Origin: Solanum dulcamara
Lineage: Eukaryota; Streptophyta; Magnoliopsida; Solanales; Solanaceae
Length of the DNA stretch: 64,000 nucleotides
Reading direction: 5' to 3'
Assembly (NCBI RefSeq): GCF_947179165.1
Contig: NC_077240.1
Location: forward strand, 53,282,001 to 53,346,000
Shown here: positions 27,506-64,000 of the stretch, one piece after another
Layout: the number at the start of each line of letters is the position of its first letter
How positions within the stretch are numbered: the first letter of the stretch is position 1
Position numbers and translations under genes: made by a program
The notes under the pieces: generated by a model
What the model saw: only the letters and a program-made list of their open reading frames with translations
Database searches by the model: none
Told to the model about the DNA's origin: nothing

Positions 27506-27541
27506 AGAACATTCGTCCCCGAATGTTGAATAAAACTTTCC

Positions 27542-27883: not shown

Positions 27884-27903
27884 TGATCTGTGAAAACTGA
27901 ATG

Positions 27904-27908
27904 TATTG
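27904..27908. repeat. Target-site duplication of E3, left copy (TATTG)
   Basis: TATTG before the LTR at 27909; repeated at 39009-39013 after the other LTR. Confidence 0.94.
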
Positions 27909-31443: not shown

Positions 31444-31457
31444 TCCTTCCCCCCTTT
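31444..31457 (-). other. Polypurine tract of E3
   Basis: AAAGGGGGGAAGGA on the minus strand abutting the 3' LTR. Confidence 0.93.
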
Positions 31458-32500: not shown

Positions 32501-32812
32501 TAGCACCCTACTCTTGAAAAGTTTAGAATAGGTGCATGGTGACGTTGATAATTTGGGAATCCTTAGCTTCGTATAGTTTTTCTCGACTTTCTTTAGAACT
32601 TTAACTGGCCTATATAGTTATTATGTGGTTTTTCACTCGTTAACTGGTTCTATGTTGAAGAACTGTGGCATTCAAGTGCGTCGTCAATTAGCAATTAGCT
32701 AATCCTTCTTATTTTGCTTAAACCCTTGTTACAATTGCCTTAACGTATCTTATAATACTCTGGGTACATAATCTCATATCGTTTCTCCATCACTAGTTCA
32801 GATTCCTCCATC

Positions 32813-32931
32813 TCGCGGGATCCCACTAGCACTAACGCATTAAGTTCCATCAGAATTTTGAAGTTAAGCGTGCTGGGGCGAGAGTAATATTGGGATGGGT
32901 GACCTTCCTGGGAAGTCTTCGTGTATCGTTT
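32813..32931 (+). pseudogene. 5S rRNA-derived segment, antisense to E3
   Basis: Nearly identical to the E1 copy at 1805-1923. The internal promoter region (AGTTAAGCGTGCT, GGGCGAGAGTA, GGATGGGTGACC) is intact while the first third is more changed. Because E3 is young, this copy travelled with the element and did not arrive by a separate insertion. Confidence 0.88.
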
Positions 32932-35457: not shown

Positions 35458-35469
35458 GCTCTGATACCA
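35458..35469 (-). other. Primer-binding site of E3
   Basis: Minus-strand TGGTATCAGAGC, four bases inside the 5' LTR end. Confidence 0.93.
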
Positions 35470-35473
35470 CTTC

Positions 35474-38400: not shown

Positions 38401-39008
38401 CCCTTCTTCATTTTTCACGTTTTCTCTCCATGTTTTGGACTGATTTTCTGGCTAGGAATGAACTAATTAGTCACAATACACATATATATATAGGGTGGCT
38501 ATGGGGGTGACACGTGTCAGCCTCCTAGGGTGACACGTGTCCAGCCGTGATTGGTCCACCATATCTATGCAACCAGTTAGGGGCTGCCACGTGGCAGCGT
38601 GGGGTCCATCCCAAGTAGGTGAGTCACCTGCCTGCTTGTCACCTGCTTGCTTCACTTTCGTAAGTTCGGAAACTAGTTTTTGCTCCCTCTCGTAGGTTCG
38701 TAATCTCGTCTTATTTTAAAAGCCTATGTAATCCGTGCTACATAAGTTTGGTATGTAATCAAGTAACTCACGTATGTAAGATTTCTAAATTAGTAGCTTG
38801 CGTAGATAAGTCGAGTCCTACGACTCGTTACTTGGCCTCCTATTCCTTCCGGATTCTTATATGATTCCCCTTCCAACCTTCTCTACTACGGGGTATCACA
38901 TCCTCCCTTCGTTGGAGTCATTTGATAGTGTCGTAGCATATCCGGTTCATATGGTAATGTCCAAGGAACTTATGAAACATTCTGAGTTTAAAAGGGTGAG
39001 GTGTAACA
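35474..39008 (-). repeat. E3 5' LTR (3535 bp)
   Basis: Pairs with 27909-31443 at almost every base. Three-hairpin module 35938-36008. Beyond the promoter block the transcript would carry GCAGCCATG near 38389 and a GTAAGTTC donor-like site near 38370. The ATG opens only five codons before a stop. Confidence 0.95.
38477..38600 (-). promoter_or_regulatory. LTR promoter block of the E3 5' LTR
   Basis: CACGTG at 38511, 38534 and 38588, the first two inside GACACGTGTC and the third inside GCTGCCACGTGGCAGC; ATTGG box near 38550; TATA run CATATATATATAG at 38481-38492. As the block of the youngest element it is the best candidate for an active promoter. Confidence 0.65.
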
Positions 39009-40057: not shown

Positions 40058-40175
40058 TTTGTTCTCTTTCTCACTTCCCAGGGGGTCACCCATCCCAGTG
40101 TTACTCTCATTCGAGCACGCTTAACTTCGGAGTTTTGACAAAATCCGGTGCATTAGTGTGAGTATGATCACGCCC
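40058..40175 (-). pseudogene. 5S rRNA-derived segment, sense to E2
   Basis: On the minus strand it carries TAGCAC-less but clear 5S order: a TGATCATACT-like start, CACTAATGCACCGGAT, AAGTTAAGCGTGCTCG, GAGAGTAACACTGGGATGGG and GTGACCCCCTGGGAAG. It is closer to genuine 5S in its first half than the E1/E3/E5 copies. It lies about 95 bp beyond the internal polypurine-like tract in element direction, the same context as in E4. Confidence 0.85.
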
Positions 40176-40268: not shown

Positions 40269-40283
40269 ACTTCCCCCCTTTAG
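40269..40283 (-). other. Second, internal polypurine-like tract (E2)
   Basis: CTAAAGGGGGGAAGT on the minus strand following GTACACC, matching the E5 and E4 context. Confidence 0.65.
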
Positions 40284-42253
40284 GGTGTACCCGTGTTATC
40301 CTCTGTTTATTTTCAGTCATTCACATGCGAATGGTTCCACTCTAACATATTTAACGTGCTGCACCATATCTACATTTTTTTGTTTAATCATCCATACGTT
40401 AGGTTGCCTTTCTAGGAAACCCTAGCATACCCATAGGGTGCTTTAGTATTTGCAATGTATCGTATAAAATATCATCTCGCGATTAATACTCGAGTAATAT
40501 CCGTAATGTAGCAGTGCATTCAAAGCCACATTCCATTCATCCCAATAGTAATTAGCGAGGGCTCATAATTGGTGCACATTCCCCACTCGAGTGTACTTAT
40601 ACTTTAATGACTCATGTTTCGAGCTTCATCATTATACTAACTTTATTCCAGTGGATACCACTAATCATTAGAGTGGAGTCACGTGTACACCATACTTCTT
40701 TACGCCTCCTGAGCTTGCACCTTTGTCGTGTGCCTAAGGCTCATTTCTAATCCTGCTTAAAACCATATCAATTTCGTGGTAGTAGGGGCCTTATCTTAAT
40801 ACTTTTTCATTGTACTATACCTCCAGTTCGTAACTGTCTATGTCTCTTTTTGTTCGATACTTATACTTAATTAGTCGCATCTATCTTGAGTGCCTCTATT
40901 AGAAATTCTGTATTATTCCTTCAACTTATTTCCATTTTTGGTTGGGCGTAAGGAATTTCCATATTACCCTTTATTTCCTTGCACTAGCCATCCTTTTCGT
41001 CATCATATAACCTTTATTCGAAACTTTCCTTATGGAACTTGATAAATCTTCCTTATTTGTTCCATAGCTTGCTTTTCCATTCCACACCTATCTTTACATT
41101 CCATTTACATGGACCACATCATACCTTCTAGTTAATTCCTTACTAAGTTTTGCTTATTCTAATAATGATTTTTGTTATGTTCACCTGGTACCTTGTTCGC
41201 ATTCAGACCTATAGTATAATACCACTTGACTTTCTTCACGATTCTTACTATGGGTTACTTACCCTTCTTAGCTAGTCTTGTCCTTAATGTCTCACAAGCT
41301 ATCTTATTAACACTTCATATCCGTCACAATTCTTTTCCCTTTGTACTCTTGTCTTACTCTTGTCTTAACCACATGGTTACTTCCTTCAACTATCACTTGT
41401 AATAGTTTATCCCTATGTATCAATTCAGGCAATGCCTTACTATCTCATTTTATCCCGATCTATCATTCCTCTCTAAGTCATTTTCTTTGGCTTATAGGTC
41501 CTTTCTAACTTATTCTACTATTCCAGTATCATCCTCCTAGTTTCTATTGCCATTAACTCAGCAGTTAGCTTATTTCTCGAGGTCAGCCATACTTGTTTAG
41601 TCAAATCTCATCATTGTTGCGAGGACAACCTTTCAAGACATACTATAGCCTTGTATCTCATTCTCCTCTTATTTCTAGGAAAATTTGGGCAGAGTTTCAT
41701 CTGTATTTCTTACTATCTCAACACCTGCACGCAGAAAATACCAACAATGCCTCATAGGGCACACATATATACATTCATATTGTATAACATCTCAGCCACA
41801 CATGGCACACATATATATTCATATCACCTCACATCGCAGCTACACAGGGTGCCCACAATTAACAATATGGAAATGAACTTACCTGTTATGTCCACTCGAG
41901 CTACACCGGTTATACTTTCCTGTTTACCTTTCCTTTCACTTTTCAATTGTATCTGTCAATCGCATTTCAATATCTTACCTGACATAGGGCTTTCGTGCCT
42001 TTGCTTACCTGCATGCTTCGTAACATCCAATATTGTCAGTTACTTTCTTCTATCGGCGTTGTCTTCCTGCTAAAATCGCAAGTTAGTATGAGGAATTTCA
42101 TTTCCTATAGCTCGGCTCTATCGCACGATCTTAGATATGAAAGAAAATAACATCCTAAATGTCCTGTAGCCTCTTGTCTATAGATGTGGTGCACAACACA
42201 CCGATAAACAAGACTCTACTAGACACGGTCTGTAGACATTCCAAGGACGAACT

Positions 42254-42265
42254 GCTCTGATACCA
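42254..42265 (-). other. Primer-binding site of E2
   Basis: Minus-strand TGGTATCAGAGC, four bases inside the 5' LTR end at 42270. Confidence 0.93.
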
Positions 42266-42269
42266 CTTC

Positions 42270-45200
42270 TGTCACGACCCAACCCCGTAGGCCGCAACTG
42301 GGGTCCGACCTGGACCCTATTATGCGTATTTATCAACTACACTTAAGTTGAACCGTGTGTGATGTGATACTATATACAAAAGCCCCAATAGTTTAAAACT
42401 TTTTTTATGTACATGTAGCCTCTTTCATTTGTATCATATCATGAAAGGGCACGTGAGCCGACAAGGCTGCTATAACAAAGACATTCACAACATATCGGAT
42501 AGGCAACATCGAAACTAATTCACAAACAACCCACATAAACACATGTCTACAGACCTCTAAGAATAATAACAACAACATATGGCGGAACAAGGCCCCCGCC
42601 GTACCCCTGAATGTACAAATATATACATTAAGTGACTAGCATCAAAATTTAGGCTCCAGAACAGTGAAGCACTTCCGACACAGCTGAGAGGAACTCCTAT
42701 GCTGATGAATCTCCAGAATAAACATCTGTACCTGCGGGCATGAAACGCAGCCCCCCGAGAAAATGGGGGTCAGTACGATATATGTACTGAGTATGTAAAG
42801 CATAACACATCGTAACTGAGATCATAACTGAAATAGGGATGCAGGGGACAAGTATAATAACTAAATGAATTACTGTACCTGCACCTTAGGACACGTAAAT
42901 CATACACATCATCATATGCTGTGCCCGACCCTCTAGTGAACTCGGTGTTATAATCACTTATCATCGTATCATAATGCATTTCATTTCATCATATCATCGT
43001 ATACGGTATCATACCATCGTATACGGTATCACTTATCATATATATCATCGTATCACACCCGGTTCACTGCGGGGCTTAGGGTCACAATGTATTGCTTTAA
43101 TCTCATATGCATGCCTACATAAAGTATCCGGCCCTTTGGTGAGGGACTCGGTGAATGGAGTGGTGTACGTCTATAGCGTACCATCATAATATACATATGT
43201 ACCCGGCCCTCTAAGGAGGGACTCGGTGTTCCTTCCTTATTTCACCACATATACAATCATATTACAGCCGGCCCGGGACTCGGTGAATAATCGCATCGTC
43301 ATAACATATAACATATATCACACCTCACGTACGGCATCGTCTCCTCGTGCGTGGAACTATACACATCCGGCCCGGGACGCGGTGAAAGAAGTAGTAACAC
43401 TGTGCACGATAACATATCCCGGCCCATCGTGGGACTCGAGGAAGGATGGGTTACAGTATGTACGAGTAGAGTAGTGAGAAACCATATGCAACTAAGTCAT
43501 TATTTAAGACTCGATGAAACAGTCAAGTGAACCGTCACCTGAACACTGGGGAGTAATTATCCGAGGTATCCCTTTAGATGTCATTAGGGCTTACATCAGT
43601 TGGGGCCTCAAGAATCACAGACATGCATCCAGACAATGCCATATAGCTTATGCAATCAGAAACATGGTTTATGTAATCAAAGACACGATTATGCAATCAG
43701 AGACACAGTTATCTAGTCAAAGACTCAAATTATGCAATCAGACGCTTTTACCATTTCAGAGCCTTTAAATGGAGAGGAGCTGGTACTTCCACTTATTATT
43801 CATTATATAGCAGGCTCGAGAATAGTAGTTTGACTACTTTCAGACTCTTAATGTTCAAGAGTGACTACAAGTCACGAGTTACAATCAGAGCTCATAAATG
43901 GAATTACCTCTAGACCTATATCATATACCATTTCACTTAAAGTTAAGCCATTCCAAAGGAAAGGAGAAATAGGCTTTACATGTACTAGTTTTCATAACAT
44001 AAAAGACTTAAGGGCAACAACTCAGCTATTGCAGGAGTTCTAACATCAAGAAGTAAATAAGAGTTTCGACTTATATTCAGGGCTTTATGAATGGATTGAA
44101 TCCCACATATCATATACATATCATTTATAACTTACATCTAAGACATGCCAAAAGAAAATAAAGATAGTTCTACATACTAATTCCCAAAAACATGCCAAAA
44201 GAAAGCTTCACATACCTCTTGTGAGTTACTCTTTATCCCATTCGCCTCGTCGTCCTTTGAACCTATCCAACATAAAATTAATATGAATATCAACCTTTCT
44301 TAACCTTCCAGTATCTTAGGTTACACCTTAGTATTAATGGAATCTATTTCCTTAGTCGTTTCCTCGACTAGTTCTTTAGTTTGTTAAGGTGTTAACGAAA
44401 ATTGGACAGCACCTCCCCTACAATGTGCCCTATCCGGATTTCCAATTAGGTCCCTAAGACCTACAGCCAACCAACAACAACAACCTGAAGCATATGTTTA
44501 AGCAATACGCAACAACAATATACAACATAAACTTCAAACGACTTATTCAAAAATACGATATCACAATAGGGCGTCTAGCCTTTATTTTGTAACGCCTTTA
44601 ATTATACACAACGAGGGGTCATGTGGATTCAACCAGCAGAACCATAAACCACTTTAAAACACATTTAGGCCCTGCAACCACACCTCACACCCCTGCAGCA
44701 ACCACTCACACTAACAACACTTCACTTCGACAACAATTCGACTATAACGACTACAATTTGGATTGCTTCGAACGTTAAACATTGCTATGACATTTCTACA
44801 CTTCCAGCAGCCTAAAAGGTGTTTAATACACCTTATAACAACACCATAAACTTCAAATTAGAAGTTAAGACCTTACCTCACCCGAAATTGGTCAAAATTC
44901 ACCAAAGTTATCAAAACGTGAATTCTGGGCAGGTTACTGTCTCGTATTGTCCCTTAGTTTCGAAGGGCTAATTGACGGGAACAGGATTTGTGTTATAAAT
45001 GAAAGTTATAGACATGTGTCTCAAGGTCGCATACCATTTCGAATCAGCCCTACAGCAATTTTGTACAAAGAGATATGCCCAAAATATCAACAGCAGTCTG
45101 TGTAGGATTTCCAGAACGAAATCTGGACAGCAGCTCCCTCAAGCTTCACCACCATTTTTGGAGTAGAGAAAAGCAAAACTGGGTTGTAGCGTCTACATGA

Positions 45201-46101
45201 AAGTTGTAGCCCTGTGTAATATCTTTCCAAAACATCTTTAATCATTTGAAACGGAGCTATACAGAAGGAGTTATACTGGTTTTACTAACAGTGGTATTTT
45301 CAAAAACGGGTCTATTAACAAGAACAAAATCTCCTCTTTTTCCTAACGATAAATTTTATGTTGTTAAACACCGTCATATCACCATAGGATACCTTAAATA
45401 ATTAATTCACGGAAAGAAATCGGGCCTTACCTATTTTTCTCCCAAAGCCGTCGCAAGTTTCTCTCCTTAAGCTTTAGGGTTCTTTGTTCACGTTGCTGCT
45501 GGAAATTTTTAATGAACAAGCTGAAGATTTTGGATACATATCAACTAATATAGGTGGTCCCAAGGGGCGACACGTGTCAGCCCCTAAGAGGGACACATGT
45601 CCAGCCCCTATTGGGCCACCGTGTCATGCTGCCAATTAGGGGCTGCCACGTGGCAGCGGGGTCCACCTCCCCCAAGCAGCTGCATCACCTACTTGACCCT
45701 AAGTAGGTGCATCACCTGCTTGCTTGAGGTGCTGCCACGTGTCGCTCCTCCATTGGCTGCCACGCGTCGTCTTTTTTCCTTCCTCACGGGTTCGTAATCT
45801 TGTCTTACTTTAAGAGCTCATGTAATCCGCACTACGTAAGCTTGGTATATCCTTAAACAACTTAAGTGTATAAGACTCTTAACTTAGTGTCTTACGTAGG
45901 TAAATCGAGTCCTACGACTCATTTCTTAGCCTCCAACTCTTTCCGGATTCTTATGACTCTATCTCCGACCTCCCTTCTCGCGAGGTATCACAATCTTCTT
46001 TCCTTAGAGTTGTTTGATAGTGTCATAGCTTATCCGGCTCACATGATAGTGTCTAAGGAACTTAAGAAGACGTTCCGAGCTCAAGAGTGCGGGGTGTAAC
46101 A
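42270..46101 (-). repeat. E2 5' LTR (3832 bp)
   Basis: TGTCACGACCC at 42270, GGGGTGTAACA at 46101 followed by GGATA. Pairs with 23658-27491. Three-hairpin module 42727-42800, hairpin array 42925-43445, promoter block 45540-45770. Confidence 0.94.
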
Positions 46102-46106: not shown

Positions 46107-46218
46107 CACCCTAAAGGAGGGAACTAGACAAGAGAAGTACAAGCGTAAGAGAAAATCAACTAACATTATCATATGTAAATGGGAACGCTTAAACTTCAAA
46201 CGAAATCCCATAAGGGAT

Positions 46219-46318
46219 GGATGCTATCATACTAGCACTAACGCACTGGATCCCATCATAACTCTGAAGTTAAGCATGCTTGGGTGAGAGTAGTACTACG
46301 ATGGGTGACCTCTTGGGA
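46219..46318 (+). pseudogene. 5S rRNA-derived segment, sense to E4 (3' end lost)
   Basis: The closest copy to genuine plant 5S: ATCATACTAGCACTAACGCA, GGATCCCATCA, GAAGTTAAGCATGCTTGGG, GAGAGTAGTACTA and GATGGGTGACCTC are all recognisable, with roughly nine differences over about 95 bases. The A-box has one change and the C-box one change plus a missing base. After TTGGGAAG the 5S 3' end is replaced by the pol fossil, which marks a deletion joint. Confidence 0.9.
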
Positions 46319-46385
46319 AGCGAAAGAGGAAATGAAACACAAGTATTCGTACCTATTCCCTACGTCTACAAGTAATCCTAACCTT
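46317..46385 (+). pseudogene. pol remnant: chromodomain-like tail joined to the 5S segment (E4)
   Basis: Plus-strand frame reads EEMKHKYSYLFPTSTSNPNL, matching the E2 tail (DMKHKCPYLFP then STDSP). No integrase remains upstream, so a deletion brought the tail directly next to the 5S-derived segment. Confidence 0.75.
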
Positions 46386-46509
46386 TGGAACTATGATATT
46401 GATTGCTTGATGAAAGTATATGTTATGGCAACGGGATAGAGGAACTCTCCATATAGTTGATATAAGATCCGGAGGAAAGTTTTGGTTCACATTCGAGGAT
46501 GAATGTTCT

Positions 46510-46523
46510 AAAGGGGGAAAGGA
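46510..46523 (+). other. Polypurine tract of E4
   Basis: AAAGGGGGAAAGGA abutting TGTTACACCCC. Confidence 0.9.
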
Positions 46524-48515: not shown

Positions 48516-51139
48516 TTATTATTATACCCCGCATTTTTTAACCTTGACACGTGTCCCAAATCATCTTGAAAGTATCCATGAGACCCTTATTATCCACACA
48601 CACCAAACAACTCTAAGGAAAGAAGATTGTGATACCTCGCGAGAAGGAAGGTTGGAAATAGAGTCATAAGAATCTGGAATGATTTGGGGGCTAAGAAATG
48701 AGTCATAGGACTCAATTTACCTATGTAAGCCACTAAGTTAAGAGTCTTATACACTTAAGTTGCTTAAGGATATATCAAGCTTACGTAGTGCGGATTACAT
48801 CGGTTCTTAAGACAAGACAAGATTACAAATCCACGGGGGAGAGGAGAAGGCGACACGTGGTAGCAAAAGGAGGTGCCATGTGGCAGCCTAGGGAAGTGCC
48901 ATGCGGCAGAAGGTGACCCACCTACTTGGGGGTGGGACCCACCAAGGACACGTGGCAGCCTTGGAGGCTAAGGGTGGATCCGTGGCCCAATAAGGGCCTG
49001 ACACGTGTCACCCTTAGGGGATGACATGTGTCACTTCCTAAGGGACCATATATATGTATGTTAATGACTTTTCTTCCGTGAATTAATTATCCACGGTGTT
49101 CCCTAAGTATGTGGATATGTATATATGTGATTTATGATGTTTATGGAATAAAAAAATCAGCTTTACGATTGGAAATTTGGAAGAAAAGAAGAAGGAAAAA
49201 TGTTGAGGGGCAAAGAGGGAGCTACGGGTTTGGACCTCTTTGAGGTAAGCCCCGACTTTTGTTCCGTGAATTAATTATTTATGGTATCCCACGGTTATAT
49301 AATTATGTGTAATAGCTTAAAATCATAATTTGGGGCAGAGAAGAAGTGTCAAAAATAGTCCTCTCCATTTCAGCACGGCAAAAGATTTTTGAAGCAAGTT
49401 TTAGCTAGTTTTGGCCAATTTCGGGAAAGATAAGTTCTTCTCCTCTAATTTGAAGTTTATTATGTTAAATTAGGGTGTATTACACACCTTAGGGGCTTCT
49501 GGAAGTTGGGTAAAAGGTTTGAAAAGTTCGGCGTTGGGAATAAACTAAATTGGAGTCTCTAGAAGTGAATTGTTGTCAAAATGAGGCGTTGTTATTGTGA
49601 GTTGCTGCTGCAGGGGTGTAATGTATTGTTGAAGGGCCTAAATATGTTCTAATGTGGGTAAGGGTTCTTCTGGTTGAATCCACATGAACCCTCATGGCGT
49701 ATAATTAAAGGCGTTACAATATAAAGGCTAGACGCCCTATTGTGATACCGTATTTGTGAATAAGTCATTTGGAGTTTATGTTGTATATTGTGGTGTGAAT
49801 TGTTGCAGTTTGTTGTTGTTGGTTGGATTTAAGTCTTAGGTACCTAATTGTAAATTTGGATAGGGCACATTATAGGGGAGGTGCTGCCCAATTTTCGTCA
49901 ATGCCTTAGCGAATAACAGAACTAGTCGGGGAAACTACTAAGGAAATAAATTCCATTAATACTAAGGTGTAACCTAGGGTGATGGAAAGTAAAAGGGGTT
50001 GATATTTATATTAATTTCATGTTGAATAGGTTCAAAGGACGGCGAGGCAAGCAGGATAAGGAATAATTCAAACAAGGTATGTGAAGCTTTCTTTTGGCAT
50101 ATTTTTGGAATAAGTATGTAGAGCTATGTTTCTTTTCTTTTGGCATGTCTTAGATGTAAGTTATGAATGATATGTATGTGATACTTGGGATTCAATTCAT
50201 TCACAAAGCCCTGAATATAAGTCGAAACTCTCATTTATTTTTTAATGTTAGAACTCCTGCAATAGCTGGGTTATTACCTTTAAGTCTTCTATGTGATGAA
50301 AAATAGTACATGTAAAGACTATCTCTTCTTTCCTTTGGAATGACTTAATTTTAAGTAAAATGATATATGATATGGGTTTAGAGGTAATTCCAGTTATGAG
50401 CTCTGAGTGTAACTCATGACTTGTAGTCACTTCTGAACATTCAGAGTCTGAAAGTAATCAAATTACTATTCTCGAGCCTGCTATATAATGAATAGTAAGT
50501 GGAGGTACCAACTCTTTTTTTTAAAGGCTATGAAATGATAAATGCGTCTTTTTGCGTAAGTTGAGTCTTTGACTAGATAAATTATGTTTCTGATTGCATA
50601 GACTATATTTCTGATTGCATAAATTGTGTGGCATTATCTTGATTCATGCCTGTGATCCCTGAAGCCCCAACTGATGTAAGCCAAACGACTAAGGAAATAA
50701 ATTCCATTAATACTAAGGTGTAACCTAGGGTGCTGGAAAGTAAAAGGGGTTGATATTCATATTAATTTCATATTGAATAGGTTCAAAGGACGGCGAGGCA
50801 AGCAGGATAAGGAATAATTCAGACAAGGTATGTGAAGTTTTCTTTTGGCGTATTTTTGGAATAAGTATGTAGAGCTATGTTTATTTTCTTTTGGCATGTC
50901 TTAGATGTAAGTTATGAATGATATGTATGTGATATTTGGGATTCACTTCATTCATAAAGCCCTGAATATAAGTCGAAACTCTCATTTACTGTTTGATGTT
51001 AGAACTCCTGCAATAGCTGGGTTATTTCCTTTAAGTCTTCTATGTGATGAAAAATAGTACATGTAAATCCTATCTCTTCTTTCCTTTGGAATGACTTAAT
51101 TTTAAGTAAAATGATATATGATATGGATTTAGAGGTAAT
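48516..51139 (+). repeat. LTR fragment of the TTATACCCC subtype with internal duplication
   Basis: Begins at ATTATACCCCGCA and resembles the fragment at 12333 and, further in, the E2 LTR. A promoter block lies at 48850-49060 with CACGTG palindromes and a TATATATG run; a TTTGAG/GTAAGC donor-like site is at 49245. At 50683 it jumps back to sequence already seen at 49933. It is cut at 51139 by the E5 array; the rest should continue beyond the right edge of the window. Confidence 0.78.
49933..51139 (+). repeat. 750-bp tandem duplication, second copy truncated
   Basis: 49933-50389 reappears at 50683-51139 with a few percent difference, both starting AACTACTAAGG or AACGACTAAGG and including ATTAATACTAAGGTGTAACC. 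Period 750 bp. The second copy ends at the E5 insertion point. Confidence 0.85.
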
Positions 51140-51529
51140 TGTTACACCTCACCCTTTTAAACTCACAATGTCTCATAAGTTCCTTGGACATTACCATATG
51201 AACTGGATATGCTACGACACTATCAAATGACTCCAACGAAGGGAGGATGTGATACCCCGTGGTAGAGAAGGTTGGAAGGGGAATCATAAGAATCCGGAAG
51301 GAATAGGAGGCCAAGCAACGAGTCGTAGGACTCGACTTATCTACGTAAGCTACTAATTTAGAAATCTTACATACGTGAGTTACTTGATTACATACCAAGC
51401 TTGCGTAGCAAGGGTTTCATAGGCTCTTAAAGTGAGACAAGATTACGAACGAGATTACGAACCCACGGAAGGGAAATAAGGAAACAACGCACCTACTTGA
51501 AGCAAGTAGGTAACTCACCTACTTGACAC

Positions 51530-51725
51530 ATGGCAGCACGTGATAGGTACACGTGGAAGCATATGAAAGTGACACGTGGCAGCAGGTGACACACCCTGGG
51601 GTGGACCCCCACCTGCCACGTGGCAACCATGGATAGGTTGCATGGATGAAGTGGCCCAATGAGAGTTTGACACATATCACCCTTAGGGGATGACACGTGT
51701 CACTTCTAATAAGGATATATATATG
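51530..51725 (+). promoter_or_regulatory. LTR promoter block of the E5 first LTR
   Basis: Several CACGTG hexamers in TACACGTGG, GTGACACGTGGCAG, TGCCACGTGGCA and GATGACACGTGTCAC, a CCCAAT box near 51655, then a TATATATATG run at 51715-51725. The same block recurs at 58713-58908 with small changes. Confidence 0.6.
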
Positions 51726-54057
51726 TTACTTTTGATGACTAAGTCATCTTATTATCCTTTTACACTTAGAAAAAAATAAGAGAGAGTTGAGAGAAAACTT
51801 GAGAGAACAAAGAGGAGGAGCTACGGGTTGGTCCAAAAGAAAAGGTACTTCTGTTAGTAATATTAGCATAACTCCCTCTGTATAGCTCCGTTTCGAGTGA
51901 TTCAAGATGTTTTGGAAAGATATTGCATAGGGATATAACTTTAATTTAGCCTATAAAACCCATTTTTTCTTTTATCATCCCGAAAAATGGCGATGAAGTA
52001 TGGGGGAGGTGCTGCCCAGATTTCGTTTTGGAAATCCTACACAGACTGCTGTTGGTATTTTGGGCATATCTCTTTGTAAACAATTGCTGTAGGGATGATT
52101 CTAAATGGTATGAGACATTGAGACACATGTCTACAACTTTCCTTGAGGCCACAAATCCTGTTTCCGTCAATTACCCCTTCGAAACTAAGAGACAATACGA
52201 TACAGTAAGCTGCGCAGAATTCACGTTTTGACAACTTTGGCGAGTTTTGGCCAATTTCGGGTAAGGTAAGGTTTCTCCTTTCAATTTGGAGTTTATCGTG
52301 TTTTTAATAAGGGTATTATATGTCGTTTAAGTTGCTGAAAATGTAAAAACACGATAGAAATGTTTGACGTTGAAGACAATGTAAAATTGAAGTTGTCATA
52401 GAGGAATTGTAATCGAAATGAGGCGTTATGTGTGTGGAGGTTGCTTATGGTTGTGTGGTGCGTGTTTCAGGGTCTAAATATGTTCTAAATAAGGTGGGGG
52501 AGCTGCTGGTTTCAGCCACATGACCCTCCTCTCCGCACGATTTAAAGCTTTTACGAAATAAAGACTAAAGACCCTATTTTAATATCGTAATGTTAAGAAA
52601 GTTGTTTGGAGCCTATGTTATATAATGTTGACATGTTTTATGTGTATATGAGTTGCAGGTTATTATTGTTGGTTGGCTGCAGTGATTAGGGATAGAATTG
52701 GGAAATCGGATAGGGCAAGTTATAGAGGAGATGTTGCCCGAATTCCGTTAACTTCTTAACTAGTTAATAAACTAGTCGAGACTAGTCGAGAAAGGAGAAT
52801 AAAAAGTTGGTTCCTGTGGGTGCTTGGTTGTGGATTTGGAAGCTGGAAAGTTGAAGGTTACTAATATTAGTATTACCTTCGTGTTAAATAGGTTCAGAGG
52901 ACGACGAGACATGCCGGGCTAAAAGCAGTCGACCAGAGGTATGTAAAGCTTTCTTGTGGCATGTTTTGGTATAAGCACGTACACTTATCTTTCTTTCCTT
53001 TTAGCAAGTTTTAGCCTTAAGTGAATTGTATGTGGAATGTGGGAATAATTCCATTCCCAGAACTCCAGGTACGCCCCATAATCCCTAACTACAGTTAAGT
53101 GTTAACACCCCTACAAGGATTGAGTATTACCTGTTAAGGTTTCTACGTGCTAAAGAATAGTGTATGGGAAACTATCTTTCCCTTCTCTTGATATGTATTT
53201 GGTACGAAAGTGAGATTTGAATGCCATAGTGTCTCACCGAGCCCTATAATGGGCCGGGTATGAAATATGTGTATGAAGGTCATGTAAAACAAGGTATAGA
53301 CTACATAAAACTTATTCTCTTTCTTCTTTTGGGCATGTCTTTGTCTTAGTTGTAAGTTGAATAAGATCCGAGCTCTGGGGTAACTCCATCCTCAAACATC
53401 TCTTATTTACTTCTGAATATAGAACTCCTACAGTAGTCGAACTATTTCCCTGGAAACTTTTATATGTTAAAAAGGTAACAAATGTACAGGCTCCAAGTCT
53501 TACAGACTATTTGTTAACAAATGTTTCTGGTTCCATAAGCGATTTGGCTTTACTTTAGTACATGTCTAGGAGCCCCGAGATTATAATTGATATTGCCCAT
53601 AATGGCATTTAGAAGCCACTCGAGATGACTACACTACTATTCGAGTCCTCCGACAAAATTTTAATCTTCTTATACGGTCAAGTCTCTAATAATGATTTAA
53701 ATTGCATATAGTTACTCACTACTCTACTCGTGTATATTGTAACACTTCTTTCCTTGAGTCCCGGGCCAGGATATGTTCTCGTGCACAGTTCACTGCATCA
53801 TTCCCTGAGTCCCTCAATAGAGGGCCAGGATACGCGTATAGATATATGATGATGTGTTGTAATAAGGTGGTGATGGCACTGGGGCCATGATGGTTTTACA
53901 GAGATGATTCACCGGACCCCCGAAAGGGCCGGCTATATGATACGACTCGAACATGCATGTTTTTGTAATTCACAAAGTACAGGTACAGGTTTCTGATTTG
54001 ACATTTTATCCCCTGCTTCTCTATTTTGGATATACCTCCAGTTGTACTATGTTACGT

Positions 54058-54126
54058 TTTACATACTCAGTACATATATCGTACTGACCTCGTTTCTCGG
54101 GGGGCTGCGTTCATACCCGCAGGTAC
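54058..54126 (+). other. Conserved three-hairpin module (E5 first LTR)
   Basis: TCAGTAC/GTACTGA arms around ATATATC, a C/T run against CGGGGGG (weakened here by CCTCG), and CTGCG/CGCAG before GTACATA. The second LTR at 61241-61309 keeps the full CCCCC/GGGGGG stem. Confidence 0.6.
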
Positions 54127-54594
54127 ATATACAGATTTTGGGAGTCCGTCAGCTTAGGATTCCATGCAACTCAGTTGGAAGAGGCTCCATTGTATCGAGG
54201 CCTAGGTTTTGGTACTGTCCACAGATGTATAAAAATTATTTCATCCATTCAGGGGTACGGCGGGGGCCCTATCTCGCCATATGTTGTCATTTATATGTTT
54301 AGAGGTCTGTAGACATGTATATGTGGGTTGTGTATGTCAGTTTGATTCAGCTGGGTCTACATGATATATGATATATGTTATTATGTTATGGCAGCCTTGT
54401 CGGCTTGCGTGCCCTATCGTGTTGTGGTACAAACGAAAAGGGCTACAGGTTTATGAAAATGTTATCGCCCAATGGGGCTTTGTTACATGATACTGTTTAT
54501 TTACAGTTCAATGTGACCACAGCTGATAGATATGTATACGGGGGGTCCAGATCGGACCCTAGTCACGGCTTATGGGGTTGGGTCGTGACAGAAG

Positions 54595-54606
54595 TGGTAT
54601 CAGAGC
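54595..54606 (+). other. Primer-binding site of E5, first unit
   Basis: TGGTATCAGAGC, four bases after the LTR end. Confidence 0.93.
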
Positions 54607-55013
54607 AGTTCGTCCTTGGATTGTCTGCAGACCGTGTCTAGTAGAGTCTTGTTTATTGATGTGTTGCGCGCCACATATATAAATAGGAAGCTACAGGATA
54701 TTTAGGATGTTACCTTTCTTCTACATCTAAGATCGTGCTTTAGATCCGAGTCATAGGAAAAATTCCTTATACTAACCTTGGATCTTAACAGAAGGACGAC
54801 ACCAACAAAAGGAGGTAATTGACAACATGGGACATCATGAAGCACGCAGGTAAGTAAAGTGAAGGCACGGAAGATATCCGTTTGGTAAGGTAGTGAAGTA
54901 TTATTGAAATGTAAAGTTGAAACCTGAAAGGAAGGCAAACAGAAAATGCCACAGATGCAGTTTGAAGTTGGACATACGAGGTAAGTCCAGTATTTTTATA
55001 TTACTATTAATAT

Positions 55014-55083
55014 TGAAAGCCCCGTGTGGCTGCGATATGAGATGACGTTGAAAGCCCTGTGCAGCTGTGATATGATATGTATA
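55014..55083 (+). repeat. Two-copy ~35-bp tandem repeat
   Basis: Units starting GAAAGCCCCGTGTGGCTGCG and GAAAGCCCTGTGCAGCTGTG, each followed by ATATGA-rich sequence. The repeat is present in all internal regions of the group (for example 17676-17740 and, in reverse, 34998-35065). Confidence 0.7.
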
Positions 55084-56100
55084 TATATATGTTGGCCCTG
55101 TGAGGCATTGTGGGTATTTTCTGCGTGCAGGTTTTGGGATAAGTAAGAAATATAGAGGGAACTCTGTCGAAATTTTCCCAGAATAAGGAAAAGGAAATGA
55201 AGCATAGATTTTTGAGATGCCCGAGAAATTGATACCAAATACCCCTACTGTGTTTAACTAAAATTGTAAGAGGTATCCTTCAGGTCGCCGACAAGGGGCA
55301 CCCTTTCTACTTGAAGAATTTTATTTTGGAGGAACAAAAGCTTAATTAAGTAGTAAAGTTCAGATTACGGTATCTCCAGCCGTATTTGTATTGTAGGAAT
55401 ATACACAGAGGGCTCAGAATGAAGGATAAGATGTCCCGCGAATGAGTTTCACTCTTTTGAAAAAATACCAAGCCCTCAACTCCTAATTGTAAATTTGATG
55501 AATTGTTCATAACTCGAGGATAAACTCAGAAGGAGACCAGGTAGGTCAAGTACTAAAAAAAGTACTGTGATGTTTAAGAGGTTCTGATTCCTTTCAACAA
55601 TGGTTGGAAAATGATGTACGATAATAGTTTATAATTTGCCACCGACTAATTGGGGAAAGAACCTCTAATAGAAGCACCTCAAAGAGATGTCAGGAACCAA
55701 ATATATATACGAACAAAAAGGGGGATATATAAGTATCAATTAAATAGTGTGATACGAGTATACAAGGATAAAGTGAGACTGCTAATAAGGCACCATTAGT
55801 AGCGGCTAACTAAGTTAAAAGTCTGCGTTGAGTACGCAATAAGAGTATGGAGCTTAAGATACAAAAAAATAACGCGGGTACACCACGTCACCCCAAAAAT
55901 AGTGGAACCCTCAAGGGACGAGGATGGCAAACTTAAAGAATAATTGGAACAACTTCCATTCATCCCAAGAAACAAAGGATATAGGTTAGGACAAAGCCAC
56001 TACTTTAAGAAAACCTGGAATAGTTATTCCCAGAATACTAGTACCGCCTAATTGAAATTGGAATGACTACAAGTACATACAGAAGAAAGCACGAGTACCC

Positions 56101-56115
56101 TCTAAAGGGGGGAAG
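56101..56115 (+). other. Second, internal polypurine-like tract (E5)
   Basis: TCTAAAGGGGGGAAG, identical over 15 bases to 58306-58320 at the true tract, but followed by TTAATGAG instead of an LTR. Confidence 0.7.
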
Positions 56116-56873
56116 TTAATGAGAAAATGGCAAAAGTAAGGTGAAGGCAATCGATATGGTAATATATTTGAAATGGACGTCTAAACTTCAATAAGATATC
56201 CTGCCGAACCAAGTTAGAAAGGTCTGGAAGCCACCAGTAATTGAACGGAAGCCAGAATGCTACATAAGGCAGCGTTGAGAAGGTTGTGACGAGACCCTAA
56301 ACAACATAACGCTAGAAGGCGTCTGCATATAAAAACAAAAGGGTGTAAACAAGAAAGGATGTGGAATGAATTAAGAAACACTACGAAGGATAATGATAAC
56401 ATGCTAGATCAAAAGCCAAAATGTTAACTATAGAGTTGGTCGCAAATAATGTTGCGATAGATATATAACCAATGACAAAGGAATAAAAAGTCTTCTGTGG
56501 TAGAAAATGAAAAGGGCACAAAGTGAATCGAGGATAGGGAAGCGTATATGTCAAATTCCTTTAAATCTATGCCAGGTAATAATAGACAGGGGTCAAAGCG
56601 GCTCCAAAGGTCACTATATGAAAGAACTTTAGCGCTACTCAATAGCCCACCCTAAAGAATGGGTGCGTACAGAAAGGGGGGGGATACAATAGGGGAAGTA
56701 AAACCAAAATGACCAAAAAAGGAGATGGTCATAGCGGAACTAAAGGTCTACGCCGATACTGGTCGCAAGATAACAAAGGAAGGACAGGGCAAAACATAAA
56801 GACTCGCGAGACAACACTAAGGTAAATCTTGGGCTAAATTGAGTGTCCGCACATCGTAGAAAGGATTACAGTG

Positions 56874-56992
56874 AAATGATATACGAAGACTTCCCAGAAA
56901 GGTCACCCATCCCAATATTACTCTCACCCTAGCACGCTTAACTTCAAAATTCTGATGGAACTTAATGCGTTAGTGCTGGTGTGATTGGGCGA
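56874..56992 (-). pseudogene. 5S rRNA-derived segment, antisense to E5
   Basis: On the minus strand: CACCAGCACTAACGCATTAAG, then AAGTTAAGCGTGCTAGGG, GAGAGTAATATTGGGATGGG and GTGACC...CTGGGAAG. Same variant bases as E1 and E3 (GCATTAAGTTCC in the first third), so the three share one capture event. The equivalent in the second unit would begin beyond base 64000. Confidence 0.87.
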
Positions 56993-57300
56993 GATGGAGG
57001 AATTTGAACTAGTGATGGAGAAATGATATGAGATTATGTACCCAGAGTATTATAAGATACGTTAAGGCAATTGTAACAAGGGTTTAAGCAAAACAAGAAG
57101 GATTAGCTAATTGCTAATTGATGATGCACTTGAATGCCACAGTTCTTCAACATAGAACCAGTTAACGAGTGGAAAACCACAACATAACTATATAGGCCAG
57201 TTAAAGTTCTAAAGAAAGTCGAGAAGAACTATACGAAGCTAAGTATTCCCAAATTATCAACGTCACCACGCACCTATTCTAAACCCTTCAAGAGTAGGGT

Positions 57301-57690
57301 GTTATACGGGTTATTGTGAGAAGGCTAACGAATCAGCCCATTTGCTTTCAAGCAAGACCACCTATGCAACTTGAATGAGGTGAAGTTATACAACAAGGAA
57401 GTAGTAAGATTCCGTGAAGTTCCCCAGCTAATATCTCAGATAGAGGAACTTCAAATATGGTTAACGTTTTGACCTCAGTCCAAGAAGAGGTTGGGAGTAC
57501 AGACAGACCTTCATACCGCATTTACCTCAGGCTTCTGAATAGAATGAGCATACTATCAACTGCTAGAAAATATATTGCGAGCTTATGAGGTAGGTTTGCC
57601 TACGAGAAGGGCTACCATTTTAGTGTCCAAATGACCCCCTACAAGATGTTGTAAGGAAGCGCCTATAGGTCCCCCTAATGGGGAAAAGAC
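57301..57690 (+). pseudogene. pol remnant: integrase core, frameshifted (E5)
   Basis: RVIVRRLTNQPICF at 57306 onward corresponds to integrase VIVDRLTKSAHF. A VRFREVP piece follows near 57398, LENILRAYE near 57565 corresponds to LEDMLRACV, and YHFSVQMTPYKML at 57613-57651 (then a stop) corresponds to YHSSIQMAPYEAL. The pieces are in order but in different frames. Confidence 0.75.
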
Positions 57691-57959
57691 TAAGCTGGCA
57701 GGCCAAACAGGATTAAGCAAACTATTGACTAAAAGCCTAGAGTCGGCAGGAATGATATACAGATAATCAACGTCGACATGCAGAGTTCAAGTTGATGATT
57801 GGATGTTCATAATGGGGTCACCTAGAAAAGGAACTTGACCCAGAATATGTTAGACTGTATTAGGTTGCGCGTAAGGTGGGCAACGCGACTGGTGAGTTGA
57901 GCTTACCACTTGATTTGGAGACCAAACGCCCAGCCTATCAGATATAAATATTTCGCGAA

Positions 57960-58165
57960 TGTACTAGCGATCCACCCATAGTATGTCTTATAAATGAAGT
58001 CCATGAGATGAAAGAGTTATCCTATGAGGAGAAATTTATTGCCATCTTCTCTTGACAAATTAGAAGGTTGCGAACTGAGGACGTGCCTTCCGTCAAGGTA
58101 CTGTGGCAAAATCAAAACCAGAAAAGGGGATGACCTAAGAAATTAGAAAGAGGACATAAAACACC
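57960..58165 (+). pseudogene. pol remnant: chromodomain-like tail (E5)
   Basis: Counterpart of E1 547-808: a DPP-x-VCL-like start, KELSYEEKFIAI, RRLRTEDVPSVKVLWQNQNQ-like segment, interrupted by frameshifts and a stop after CTTCTCTTGA near 58050. Confidence 0.65.
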
Positions 58166-58308
58166 AGGTAAACAGGTAACCCCAACTCCTGAAACTCATA
58201 TACTAATTACTTCGATGGAAATATGTGTAAGGAAATAGAAACGAATCCCCCGATGGTCTGTATAAGTTCTAAGGGAAGTTTTGTTTAACAATCGGGGACG
58301 AATGTTCT

Positions 58309-58322
58309 AAAGGGGGGAAGGA
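58309..58322 (+). other. Polypurine tract of E5, first unit
   Basis: AAAGGGGGGAAGGA abutting TGTTACACC at 58323. Confidence 0.93.
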
Positions 58323-61300
58323 TGTTACACCTTACCCTTTTAAACTCAGAATGTCTCATAAGTTCTTTGGACATTACCATATAAACCGTATATGCTACGA
58401 CACTATCAAATGACTCCAACGAAGGGAGGATGTGATACCCCGTGGTACAGAAGGTTGGAAGGGGAATCATAAGAATCCGGAAGGAATAGAAGGCAAAGCA
58501 ACGAGTCGTAGGACTCGACTTATCTACGTAAGCTACTAATTTAGAAATCTTACATACGTGAGTTACTTGACTACATACCAAGCTTGCGTAGCAAGGGTTT
58601 CATAGGCTCTTAAAGTGAGACAAGATTACGAACAAGATTACGAACCCATGGAAGGGAAATAATGAAACGACGCACCTACTTGAAGCAAGTAGGTGACTCA
58701 CCTACTTGACACATTGCAGCACGTGATAGGTACACGTGGAAGCATATGAGAGTGACATGTGGCAGCAGGTGACACACCTTGGGGTGGACCCCCACCTGCC
58801 ACGTGGCAACCATGGATAGGTTGCATGGATGAAGTGGCCCAATGAGAGTTTGACACATGTCACCCTTAGGGGATGACACGTGTCACTTCTAATAAGGATA
58901 TATATATGTTACTTTTGATGACTAAGTCATCTTATTATCCTTTTACACTTAGAAAAAAATAAGAGAGAATTGAGAGAAAACTTGAGAGAACAAAGAGGAG
59001 GAGCTACGGGTTGGTCCAAAAGAAAAGGTACTTCTGTTAGTAATATTAGCATAACTCCCTCTGTATAGCTCCATTTCGAGTGATTCAAGATATTTTGGAA
59101 AGATATTGCATAGGGATATAACTTTAATTTAGCCTATAAAACCCAGTTTTTCTTTTATCATCCCGAAAAATGGTGATGAAGTATGGGGGAGGTGCTGCCC
59201 AGATTTCGTTTTGGAAATCCTACACAGACTGCTGTTGGTATTTTGGGCATATCTCTTAGTAAACAATTGTTGTAGGGATGATTCTAAATGGTATGCGACC
59301 TTGAGACACATGTTTACAACTTTCCTTGAGGCCACAAATCCTGTTTCCGTCAATTACCCCTTCGAAACTAAGAGACAATACGATACAGTAAGCTGCGCAG
59401 AATTCACGTTTTGACAACTTTGGCGAGTTTTGGCCAATTTCGGGTAAGATAAGGTTTCTCCTTTCAATTTGGAGTTTATCGTGTTTTTAATAAGGGTATT
59501 ATATGTCATTTAAGTTGCTGAAAATGTAAAACCACAATAGAAATGTTTGACGTTGAAGACAATGTAAAATTGAAGTTGTCATAGAGGAATTGTAATCGAA
59601 ATGAGGCGTTATGTGTGTGGAGGATGCTTCTGGTTGTGTGGTGCGTGTTTCAGGGTCTAAATATGTTCTAAATAAGGTGGGGGAGCTGCTGGTTTCAGCC
59701 ACACGACCCTCCTCTCCGCACGATTTAAAGCTTTTACGAAATAAAGGCTAAAGACCCTATTTTAATATCGTAATGTTAAGAAAGTTGTTTGGAGCCTATG
59801 TTATATAATGTTGACATGTTTTATGTGTATATGAGTTGCAGGTTATTGTTGTTGGTTGGCTGTAGTGATTAAGGATAGAATTGGGAAATCGGATAGGGCA
59901 AGTTATAGAGGAGATGCTGCCCGAATTCCATTAACTTCTTAACTAGTTAATAAACTAGTCGAGACTAGTCGAGAAAGGAGAATAAGAAGTTGGTTCCTGT
60001 GGGTGCTTGGTTGTGGATTTGGAAGCTGGAAAGTTGAAGGTTACTAATATTAGTATTACCTTCGTGTTAAATAGGTTCAGAGGACGACGTGACATGTCGG
60101 GCTAAAAGCAGTCGACCAGAGGTATGTAAAGCTTTCTTGTGGCATGTTTTGGTATAAGCACGTACACTTATCTTTCTTTCCTTTTAGCAAGTTTTAGCCT
60201 TAAGTGAATTGTATGTGGAATGTGGGAATAATTCCATTCCCAGAACACCAGGTATGCCCCATAATCCCTAACTACAGTTAAGTGTTAACACCCCTACAAG
60301 GATTGAGTATTACCTGTTAAGGCTTCTACGTGCTAAAGAATAGTGTATGGGAAACTATGTTTCCCTTCTCTTGATATGTATTTGGTACGAAAGTGAGATT
60401 TGAATGCCATAGTGGCTCACCGAGCCCTATAATGGGCCGGGTATGAAATATGTGTATGAAGGTCATCTAAAACAAGGTACAGACTACATAAAACTTATTC
60501 TCTTTCTTCTTTTGGGCATGTCTTTGTCTTTGTTGTAAGTTGAATAAGATCCGAGCTCTGGGGTAACTCCATCCTCAAACATCTCTTATTTACTTCTAAA
60601 TATAGAACTCCTACAGTAGTCGAACTATTTCCCTGGAAACTTTTATATGTTAAAAAGGTAACAAATGTACAGGCTCCAAGTCTTACAGACTATTTGTTAA
60701 CAAATGATTCTGGTTCCATAAGCGATTTGGCTTTACTTTAGTACATGTCTAGGAGCCCCGAGATTATAATTGATATTGCCCATAATGGCATTTAGAAGCC
60801 ACTCGAGATTACTACACTACTATTCGAGTCCTCCGACAAAATTTTAATCTTCTTATACGGTCAAGTCTCTAATAATGATTTAAATTGCATATAGTTACTC
60901 ACTACTCTACTCGTGTATATTGTAACACTTCTTTCCTTGAGTCCCGGGCCAGGATATGTTCTCGTGCACAGTTCACTCCATCATTCCCTGAGTCCCTCAA
61001 TAGAGGGCCAGGATACGTGTATAGATATATGATGATGTGTTGTAATAAGGTGGTGATGGCACTGGGGCCATGATGGTTTTACAGAGATGATTCACCGGAC
61101 CCCCGAAAGGGCGGGCTATATGATACGATTCGAACATGCATGTTTTTGTAATTCACAAAGTACAGGTACAGGTTTCTGATTTGACATTTTATCCCCTACT
61201 TTTCTATTTTGGATATACCTCTAGTTGTACTATGTTACGTTTTACATACTCAGTACATATATCGTACTGACCCCCTTTCTCGGGGGGCTGCGTTCATGCC

Positions 61301-61773
61301 CGCAGGTACATATACAGATTTTGGGAGTCCGTCAGCTTAGGATTCCATGCAGCTCAGTTGGAAGAGGCTCCATTGTATCGAGGCCTAGTTTTTGGTACTG
61401 TCCACAGATGTATAAAAATTATTTCATCCATTCAGGGGTACGGCGGGGGCCCTGTCCCGCCATATGTTGTCATTTATATGTTTAGAGGTCTGCAGACATG
61501 TATATGTGGGTTGTGTATGTCAGTTTGATTCAGCTGGGTCTACATAATATATGATATATGTTATTATGTTATGGCAGCCTTGTCGGCTTGCGTGCCCTAT
61601 CGTGTTGTGGTACAAACGAAAAGGGCTACAGGTTTATGAAAATGTTATCGCCCAATGGGGCTTTGTTACATGATACTGTTTATTTACAGTTCAATGTGAC
61701 CACAGCTGATAGATATGTATACGGGGGGTCCAGATCGGACCCCAGTCACGGCTTACGGGGTTCGGTCGTGACA
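58323..61773 (+). repeat. E5 second LTR (3451 bp), shared by both units
   Basis: Preceded by a polypurine tract and followed by a primer-binding site, so it is both 3' and 5' LTR. Promoter block 58713-58908, three-hairpin module 61241-61309, end GGTCGTGACA at 61773. Confidence 0.94.
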
Positions 61774-61777
61774 GAAA

Positions 61778-61789
61778 TGGTATCAGAGC
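61778..61789 (+). other. Primer-binding site of E5, second unit
   Basis: TGGTATCAGAGC after GAAA, where the first unit has GAAG. Confidence 0.92.
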
Positions 61790-63285
61790 AGTTCGTCCTT
61801 GGATTGTCTGCAGACCGTGTCTAGTAGAGTCTTGTTTATCGGTGTGTTGCTCGTCACATCCATAAACAGGAAGCTACAGGATATTTAGGATGTTACCTTT
61901 CTTCTACATCTAAGATCGTGCTTTAGATCCGAGTCATAGGAAAAATTCTTTATACTAACCTTGGATCTTAACAGAAGGACGACACCAACAAAAGGAGGTA
62001 ATTGACAACATGGGACATCATGAAGCACGCAGGTAAGTAAAGTGAAGGCACGGAAGATATCCGTTTGGTAAGGTAGTGAAGTATTATTGAAATGTAAAGT
62101 TGAAACCTGAAAGGAAGGCAAACAGGAAATGCCACAGATGCAGTTTGAAGTTGGACATACGAGGTAAGTCCAGTATTTTTATATTACTATTAATATTGAA
62201 AGCTCCGTGTGGCTGCGATATGAGATGACGTTGAAAGCCCTGTGTGGCTGTGATATGATATGTGTATATATATATGTTGGCCCTGTGAGGCATTGTAGGT
62301 ATTTTCTGCGTGCAGGTTTTGGGATAAGTAAGAAATATAGCGGGAACTCTGTCGAAATTTTCCCAGAATAAGGAAAAGGAAATGAAGCATAGATTTTTGA
62401 GATGCCCGAGAAATTGATACCAAATACCCCTGCCGTGTTTAACTAAAACAGTAAGAGGTATCCTTCAGGTCGCCGACAAGGGTCACCCTTTCTACTTGAA
62501 GAATTTTATTTCGGAGGAACAAAAGCTTAATTAAGTAGTAAAGTTTAGATTACGGTATCTCCAGCCGTATTTGTATTGTAGGAATATACACAGAGGGCTC
62601 AGAATGAAGGATAAGATGTCCCGCGAATGAGTTTCACTCTTTTGAAAAAATACCAAGCCCTCAACTCCTAATTGTAAATTAGATGAATTGTTCATAACTC
62701 AAGGATAAACTCAGAAGGAGACCAGGTAGGTCAAGTACTAAAAAAAGTACTGTGATGTTTAAGAGGTTCTGATTCCTTTCAACAATGGTTGGAAAATGAT
62801 GTACGATAATAGTTTATAATTTGCCACCGACTAATTGGGGAAAAAACCTCTAATAGAAGTACCTCAAAGAGATGTCAGGAACCAAATATATATACGAACA
62901 AAAAGGGGGATATATAAGTATCAATTAAATAGTGTGATACGAGTATGCAAGGATAAAGTGAGACTACTAATAAGGCGCCATTAGTAGCGGCTAACTAAGT
63001 TAAAAGTCTGCGTTGAGTACGCAATAAGAGTATGGAGCTTAAGATACAAAAAAATAACGCGGGTACACCACGTCACCCCAAAAATAGTGGAACCCTCAAG
63101 GGACGAGGATGGCAAACTTAAAGAATAATTGGAACAACTTCCATTCATCCCAAGAAACAAAGGATATAGGTTAGGACAAAGCCACTACTTTAAGAAAACC
63201 TGGAATAGTTATTCCCAAAATACTAGTACCGCCTAATTGAAATTGGAATGACTACAAGTACATACAGAGGAAAGCACGAGTACCC

Positions 63286-63300
63286 TCTAAAGGGGGGAAG
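63286..63300 (+). other. Second, internal polypurine-like tract (E5, second unit)
   Basis: TCTAAAGGGGGGAAG, same as 56101-56115. Confidence 0.7.
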
Positions 63301-64000
63301 TTAATGAGAAAATGGCAAAAGTAAGGTGAAGGCAATCGATATGGTAATATATTTGAGATGGACGTCTAAACTTCAATAAGATATCCTGCCAAACCAAGTT
63401 AGAAAAGTCTGGAAGCCACCAGTAATTGAACGGAAGCTAGAATGCTACATAAGGCAGCGTTGAGAAGGTTGTGACGAGACCCTAAACAACAAAACACTAG
63501 AAGGCGTCTGCATATAAAAACAAAAGGGTGTAAGCAAGAAAGGATGTCGAATGAATTAAGAAACACTATGAAGGATAATGATAACATGCTAGATCAAAAG
63601 CCAAAATGTTAACTATAGAGTTGGTCGCAAATAATGTTGCGATAGATATATAACCAAGGACAAAGGAATAAAAAGTCTTCTGTGGTAGAAAATGAAAAGG
63701 GCACAAAGTGAATCGAGGATAGGGAAGCGTATATGTCAAATTCCTTTAAATCTATGCCAGGTAATAATAGACAGGGGTCAAAGCGGCTCCAAAGGTCACT
63801 ATATGAAAGAACTTTAGCGCTACTCAATAGCCCACCCTAAAGAATGGGTGCGTACAGAAAGGGGGGGGATACAATAGGGGAAGTAAAACCAAAATGACCA
63901 AAAAAGGAGATGGTCATAGCGGAACTAAAGGTCTACGCCGATACTGGTCGCAAGATAACAAAGGAAGGATAGGGCAAAACATAAAGACTCGCGAGACAAC

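Follow-up and report, generated by a model that had tools for sequence, protein, structure and literature searches.

Five LTR elements in the analysed window (64,000 nucleotides; positions 53282001-53346000 of contig C4) each carry one segment derived from 5S rRNA, which is located in the element interior in all five and in an LTR in none. It is probable that these are protein-less, LARD-like elements of chromovirus descent whose interior received 5S DNA at least twice, and that the 5S segment is now a passenger. In antisense orientation the 5S would have arrived once, when some 150-160 bp were inserted into an ancestor shared by lineages A and C, and in lineage B it would have arrived once in sense orientation; it would then have been copied along during reverse transcription with the proteins of an autonomous partner. 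Interior 5S in elements of this size departs in an unusual way from Cassandra, whose small elements use 5S as a promoter, and suggests that, among plant LTR elements, capture of 5S is confined neither to miniature elements nor to the LTR.

Elements and 5S segments of the window

The window consists mostly of LTR elements that are related to each other and partly nested (8002-17250 was annotated in part). Element orientation was set by the primer-binding site (PBS), the LTR ends and the polypurine tract (PPT), which places E0, E1 and E2 on the minus strand and E3 and E4 on the plus strand. The LTRs, 3.5-3.8 kb in length, begin with TGTTACACC and end with GTCGTGACA, followed by the PBS TGGTATCAGAGCA, which we take to correspond to the iMet tRNA; tRNA genes themselves were not found in the window by ARAGORN. 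LTR pair, PBS, PPT and target duplication are complete in E0, E1 and E2, and the duplication measures 5 bp in all three elements tested. E3 and E4 possess PBS and PPT, and their outer ends were mapped in part. Interiors are about 3.7-4.1 kb long (E0, E1, E2, E4) and the elements about 11 kb, E2 spanning 27909-39008. E2 lies inside E1 and E1 inside E3, and E4 is a tandem of LTR, interior, LTR and interior. As the LTR pairs are 99.5% (E1, 3832 bp) and 99.9% (E2, 3539 bp) identical, E1 and E2 were inserted recently.

E0 3' LTR: minus strand, from 414 across the window edge into the neighboring stretch L062; target duplication CTTTT
E0 5' LTR: 4486-8000, minus strand; PBS 4469-4481 (-), PPT 416-443 (-)
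E1 3' LTR: 23660-27491, minus strand; PPT 27493-27520 (-); target duplication GGATA
E1 5' LTR: 42270-46101, minus strand; PBS 42253-42265 (-)
E2 3' LTR: 27909-31443, minus strand; PPT 31445-31472 (-); target duplication TATTG
E2 5' LTR: 35474-39008, minus strand; PBS 35457-35469 (-)
E3 PBS: 22158-22170, plus strand
E3 PPT: 46495-46522, plus strand, with one mismatch, ahead of the 3' LTR
E4 LTR 1 of the tandem: 51140-54590, plus strand
E4 PBS TGGTATCAGAGCA: 54595-54607, plus strand
E4 PPT with upstream box: 58294-58321, plus strand, ahead of the next LTR
E4 LTR 2 of the tandem: 58323-61773, plus strand; PBS of the second unit at 61778

Besides the PPT, an internal polypurine motif, CTAAAGGGGGGAAG, perhaps a central PPT, was observed at 2684-2697 (-), 19031-19044 (+), 40270-40283 (-), 56102-56115 (+) and 63287-63300 (+); its surroundings are common to both element types described below and the motif is altered in E2. 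Just ahead of the E4 tandem there is a direct repeat of 458 bp, 96% identical (49932-50389 and 50683-51140).

When the whole window was compared with 4227 Rfam families by cmscan, all five matches above the gathering score were to the 5S family RF00001 (41-55.5 bits), and chance matches as the source of the 5S signal were thereby ruled out. An earlier note, made from the letters of this DNA, had claimed five 5S copies, and all five were recovered at their places, none of them as background.

5S in E0: 1805-1923, plus strand; RF00001 1805-1924, 50.7 bits; antisense to the element
5S in E1: about 40066-40175, minus strand; RF00001 40066-40167, 41.0 bits, E 4.7e-5; sense, 3' end missing
5S in E2: 32813-32931, plus strand; RF00001 32813-32932, 49.8 bits; antisense
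5S in E3: about 46219-46327, plus strand; RF00001 46219-46335, 55.5 bits, E 6.8e-9; sense, 3' end missing
5S in E4: 56874-56992, minus strand; RF00001 56881-56985, 48.0 bits; antisense according to PBS and PPT

The earlier coordinates held for the antisense copies in E0, E2 and E4, which lie 1330-1390 bp upstream of the 3' LTR as calculated from coordinates. In the sense copies similarity to 5S is gone past about position 102-103, and the limits of the 5S part were corrected to those given above. Relative to the host 5S gene L004, taken as reference from an array on contig C7, differences at aligned positions amount to 28/118 in E0, 28/118 in E2, 29/118 in E4, 25/110 in E1 and 16/109 in E3.

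In the E4 tandem, the second unit reaches the window end about 57 nt ahead of its expected 5S, and in the 10 kb past the window end an antisense 5S is present at L061:66-170 (-), as predicted for this unit. In the 10 kb before the window, an antisense 5S (L062:348-467, -) lies 1345 bp upstream of the 3' LTR of A2, a relative of these elements whose LTR is 78% identical to that of E2. The rule of one 5S per element, as put forward in the earlier note, thus holds for the window and for both neighboring stretches, but not for the whole family, of which a member without 5S (L071) was found.

Coding traces and comparison with known systems

The longest sense frame in the interiors measures 120 amino acids. 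Pfam searches with 40 stop-free frames gave no significant match (best no better than E 0.019) and detected no gag, reverse transcriptase (RT) or integrase core, and a protein search with a frame of 191 amino acids gave no match. One frame in the 3' interior of E1 (27545-27904, minus strand) resembles a Solanum verrucosum protein (61% over 51 amino acids) that carries SH3_Tf2-1 and Chromo matches; the window fragment itself is without Pfam match, so that this chromodomain region, the sole coding trace found, was identified via one homologue. The same homologue, the single protein clue to the host, makes a plant of the Solanaceae likely. Scans of viral contigs and genome contigs for the PBS motif yielded no matches.

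The elements are apparently non-autonomous, LARD-like and of Ty3/gypsy type with LTRs of 3.5-3.8 kb, in agreement with what the earlier note had proposed (Ty3/gypsy-derived, non-autonomous, LTRs of 3-4 kb), the assignment to Ty3/gypsy depending on the fossil recognized through one homologue. The 5S had been placed between the PBS and an integrase fossil; it does lie in the interior, between the PBS and a C-terminal pol fossil, but this fossil is, as judged by the one homologue, a chromodomain region, and an integrase core was not found in the frames searched. Autonomous plant chromoviruses of the Tekay/Del type resemble the present elements in the putative chromodomain region ahead of the 3' LTR and in the kind of PBS, and differ in that gag, RT and integrase core were not detected here. 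With LARDs, as defined in PMC7215508, the elements have in common the big LTRs, a long interior that is non-coding and holds PBS and PPT, and presumed mobilization in trans, which would here depend on an autonomous partner; they differ in bearing a 5S-derived segment, and no LARD with such a segment was found described.

Among elements with 5S, Cassandra is the obvious comparison. Both are gene-less LTR elements with a 5S-derived segment, a TGGTATCAGAGC primer site and copies in tandem arrays, but Cassandra carries its 5S in both LTRs, whereas here it is interior, present once per element and antisense in one type. Membership in Cassandra was ruled out: the 5S is outside the LTRs in all five elements, as the earlier note had recognized, the LTRs of E2 alone are about 3.5 kb long, and the Cassandra query from the literature, which asks for TGGTATCAGAGC 5-200 nt past the 5S boxes, finds the boxes in 4/5 segments and boxes plus PBS in 0/5. 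The sizes are also far apart, 565-860 bp being given for Cassandra in PMC10886601, compared to about 11 kb here. Ajax, Helenus and other TRIMp3 elements are likewise LTR elements that are non-autonomous and have captured a small-RNA gene, but according to the same paper (Kojima 2024, PMC10886601) they have the small-RNA sequence in the LTR and reach 1263 bp. In the open-licence PMC literature searched, as judged by title or beginning of the abstract, no paper describes a large LTR element with 5S sequence in it, and to that extent the remark of the earlier note that it knew of no such family is upheld.

Copies in the genome and number of acquisitions

The host assembly (942 Mb, 32 contigs) was searched for further copies. 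Using the sense-type 5S with its flanks as query (401 bp), the best 40 of 2739 candidates were scored, each of which covers 399 or more bases of the query at 95-100% identity, so that the proposal of the earlier note to find further copies through the flanks succeeded for the sense type; because they were ranked by similarity to E1, these matches sample the close relatives of E1. Ten of the 40 belong to four arrays, in which the step is about 7.12-7.16 kb. The 5S has the same orientation relative to the internal PPT-like motif in 30 of 30 copies fetched, and in 29 of them the 3' PPT follows 1515-1517 nt past the 5S A box, the remaining one being E1, which is split by E2. Head-to-tail arrays with common LTRs and steps of about 7.1-7.2 kb were observed at 51140-64000 of the window, at 37.59-37.61 Mb of C9, at 54.25 and 54.62 Mb of C4 and at 43.65 Mb of C23. 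An arbitrary sample of 12 stretches (80 kb in total), picked by round mid-chromosome coordinates and not random genome-wide, contained a 5S match in four stretches, in each case within the present element family.

L069: lineage A, antisense 5S
L070: lineage B, sense 5S
L072: A-like, antisense 5S
L074: further lineage C, antisense 5S
L071: family interior without 5S
L064 and L065: window-like pieces only, 567 and 2090 of 7000 bases

No window-like sequence was found in L063, L066, L067, L068 or L073. At L070:989-3588, an E1-like copy without nested E2 represents the empty counterpart of the E2 insertion site.

The two types of element have their 5S not only in opposite orientation but also at different positions and with different ends. 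Their interiors are collinear relatives (63-75% in six blocks, one of which holds CTAAAGGGGGGAAG), and the near flanks of the 5S show no match between types. In the antisense type, TC replaces the first two letters of the 5S and the 3' end is kept; this junction was read in E2, E4, L062, L072 and L074, representing four lineages, and the same copies have changes at positions 31, 44, 46 and 117 in common, some of which could be parallel because all are C-to-T or G-to-A. These observations point to one insertion older than the split of lineages A and C, the flanks of which are now 61-72% alike between the two lineages, depending on the alignment. A target duplication around the antisense 5S was considered and rejected, as E2 shows GAAACGATA and E4 shows it in the form GAAATGATA, while L062, L072 and L074 lack it.

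The relative without 5S allows a view of the insertion site. In element sense, positions 503-692 of lineage C correspond to 1983-2188 of L071 (E 1.8e-21) and positions 853-1149 to 2197-2503 (E 6e-37), and the intervening 160 bp of lineage C, 5S included, are missing from L071. Comparison of E2 with L071 reveals a 154-bp gap at the same place, which suggests an insertion of about 150-160 bp rather than a loss in L071. Against so simple a picture, a segment next to the 5S site in lineage A (E2 2170-2358) is found at another place in L071. In a tree of 3' interior ends, L071 is placed beside the antisense copies (88/92, below the star level of the tool) and the 3' end of E3 groups with lineage C (100/99), although the 5S of E3 is of the sense type; because the family recombines, L071 may represent either the original state or a loss. 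E3 itself seems to be chimeric, with sense 5S and 5' interior similar to E1 and a 3' end that goes with lineage C (46107-46522; L074:3638-3845).

Sense copies keep the 5' end of the 5S and have lost the 3' end past about position 103. E1 and E3 have two identical 5S changes and three changed positions in common, 1.9 being expected, which is no more than chance, and because they share just two changes the 5S of the ancestor of lineage B would have been close to the host gene. As orientation, positions and junctions differ between the types, the 5S was probably acquired in at least two separate events, and the reading of the earlier note, which had treated the five copies as one event in one group, is not supported.

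The rival view, a single acquisition before the split of lineages A and B followed by inversion of the 5S segment in one lineage, would account for the collinear interiors, in which both 5S lie in opposite orientation within the same interval between shared blocks. E1 also has 5-6 identical 5S changes in common with the antisense copies (7-8 same positions compared to 3.9-4.3 expected), a mild hint of common origin that counts against two acquisitions. However, similarity in reverse orientation was not found beside the 5S, the ends differ in the ways described, a B ancestor with 5S near the host gene does not fit, and the antisense segment is missing from L071, making a single acquisition very unlikely.

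Another question is whether the 5S came from a 5S gene, or arrived within a Cassandra element, as LTR or piece of it. The promoter-biased conservation that predates spreading (see below) resembles the 5S core of Cassandra as described in PMC10853983, and the sense-type 5S begins 108 nt past the start of a polypurine-like motif. The same motif, however, occurs in lineage A about 775 nt from the 5S, apart from the 5S itself the 5S-free relative lacks no more than about 30-40 bases there, too few for an LTR, and a PBS within 200 nt is not found by the pattern query in any of the five. A Cassandra pattern with 60-90 nt to the PBS also had no match in the genome, the comparison being one by pattern. 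Arrival within Cassandra is considered improbable.

Conservation of the 5S promoter region

Compared to the host gene, the antisense copies have fewer differences in promoter positions 50-97 (E0 5, E2 5, E4 7, L062 5, L072 6 and L074 3 differences, each of 48) than in positions 1-49 (16, 17, 16, 15, 15 and 9, respectively, of 49). With a second reference 5S, the Fisher test of promoter versus 5' part gave p values of 0.0006-0.009 for E0, E2 and E4 and of 0.45-0.52 for E1 and E3, which show no such bias. Among six copies of lineage A, the 5S is variable at 17/119 sites and the flanks at 191/669 (p 0.001), and region 50-97 at 5/48 (p 0.0065), but the flank figure is inflated by a poorly aligned stretch of L062, and the upstream flank alone (49/340) leaves a small contrast. 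At 5S positions 25-92 only 2/68 sites vary (versus 191/669, p 1.8e-7), which is not taken as proof of selection because the stretch was picked post hoc and the flank alignment is in part bad. In comparisons between lineages, none of 10 pairs shows significantly stronger conservation of the pre-set promoter region 50-97 than of the near flanks (one-sided p 0.062-0.83), and no lowered variation in the promoter region was seen among the 30 sense copies. The promoter bias thus seems to be mostly early, coming from the donor or arising by chance, and because of the ten pairwise tests a passenger copied by retrotransposition, presumably without selected function, is the best reading.

It might alternatively be proposed that the 5S is retained for its use as Pol III promoter or as site for TFIIIA binding; in lineage A it would drive transcription in antisense toward the 5' LTR, and in lineage B a sense internal transcript. 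The promoter bias of the antisense copies and the lower 5S variation among the six A copies are consistent with this proposal, as are the promoter boxes of the published Cassandra pattern in 4/5 segments and a TTTT 79 nt past the antisense 5S. The lack of bias in E1 and E3 and the conservation after insertion, no better than that of the flanks, argue against it, and E1 has no near terminator, its first TTTT lying at +364 whereas that of the host gene lies at +3; it is accordingly unlikely that the 5S has a Pol III role. Broader still, giant non-autonomous elements might repeatedly have taken up interior 5S promoters as a benefit, the antisense 5S driving Pol III transcripts or binding TFIIIA and so shaping silencing, RNA packaging or array formation. 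This would amount to a Cassandra-like promoter capture outside the LTR and reversed, and is regarded as unlikely.

Because one family has sense, antisense and 5S-free interiors, the effect of an internal 5S on element success is testable by comparison. The 5S segments also scatter 5S-like DNA over the genome, by which 5S annotation, repeat clustering and in situ hybridization could be led astray. A search of the genome with the host 5S, in which 47 of 28662 first-look candidates were scored, is no gauge of the number of degenerate copies because all 47 are near-complete 5S (108-117 bits); 46 of the 47 are located on C7, where the true 5S genes are arrayed in steps of 341 bp.
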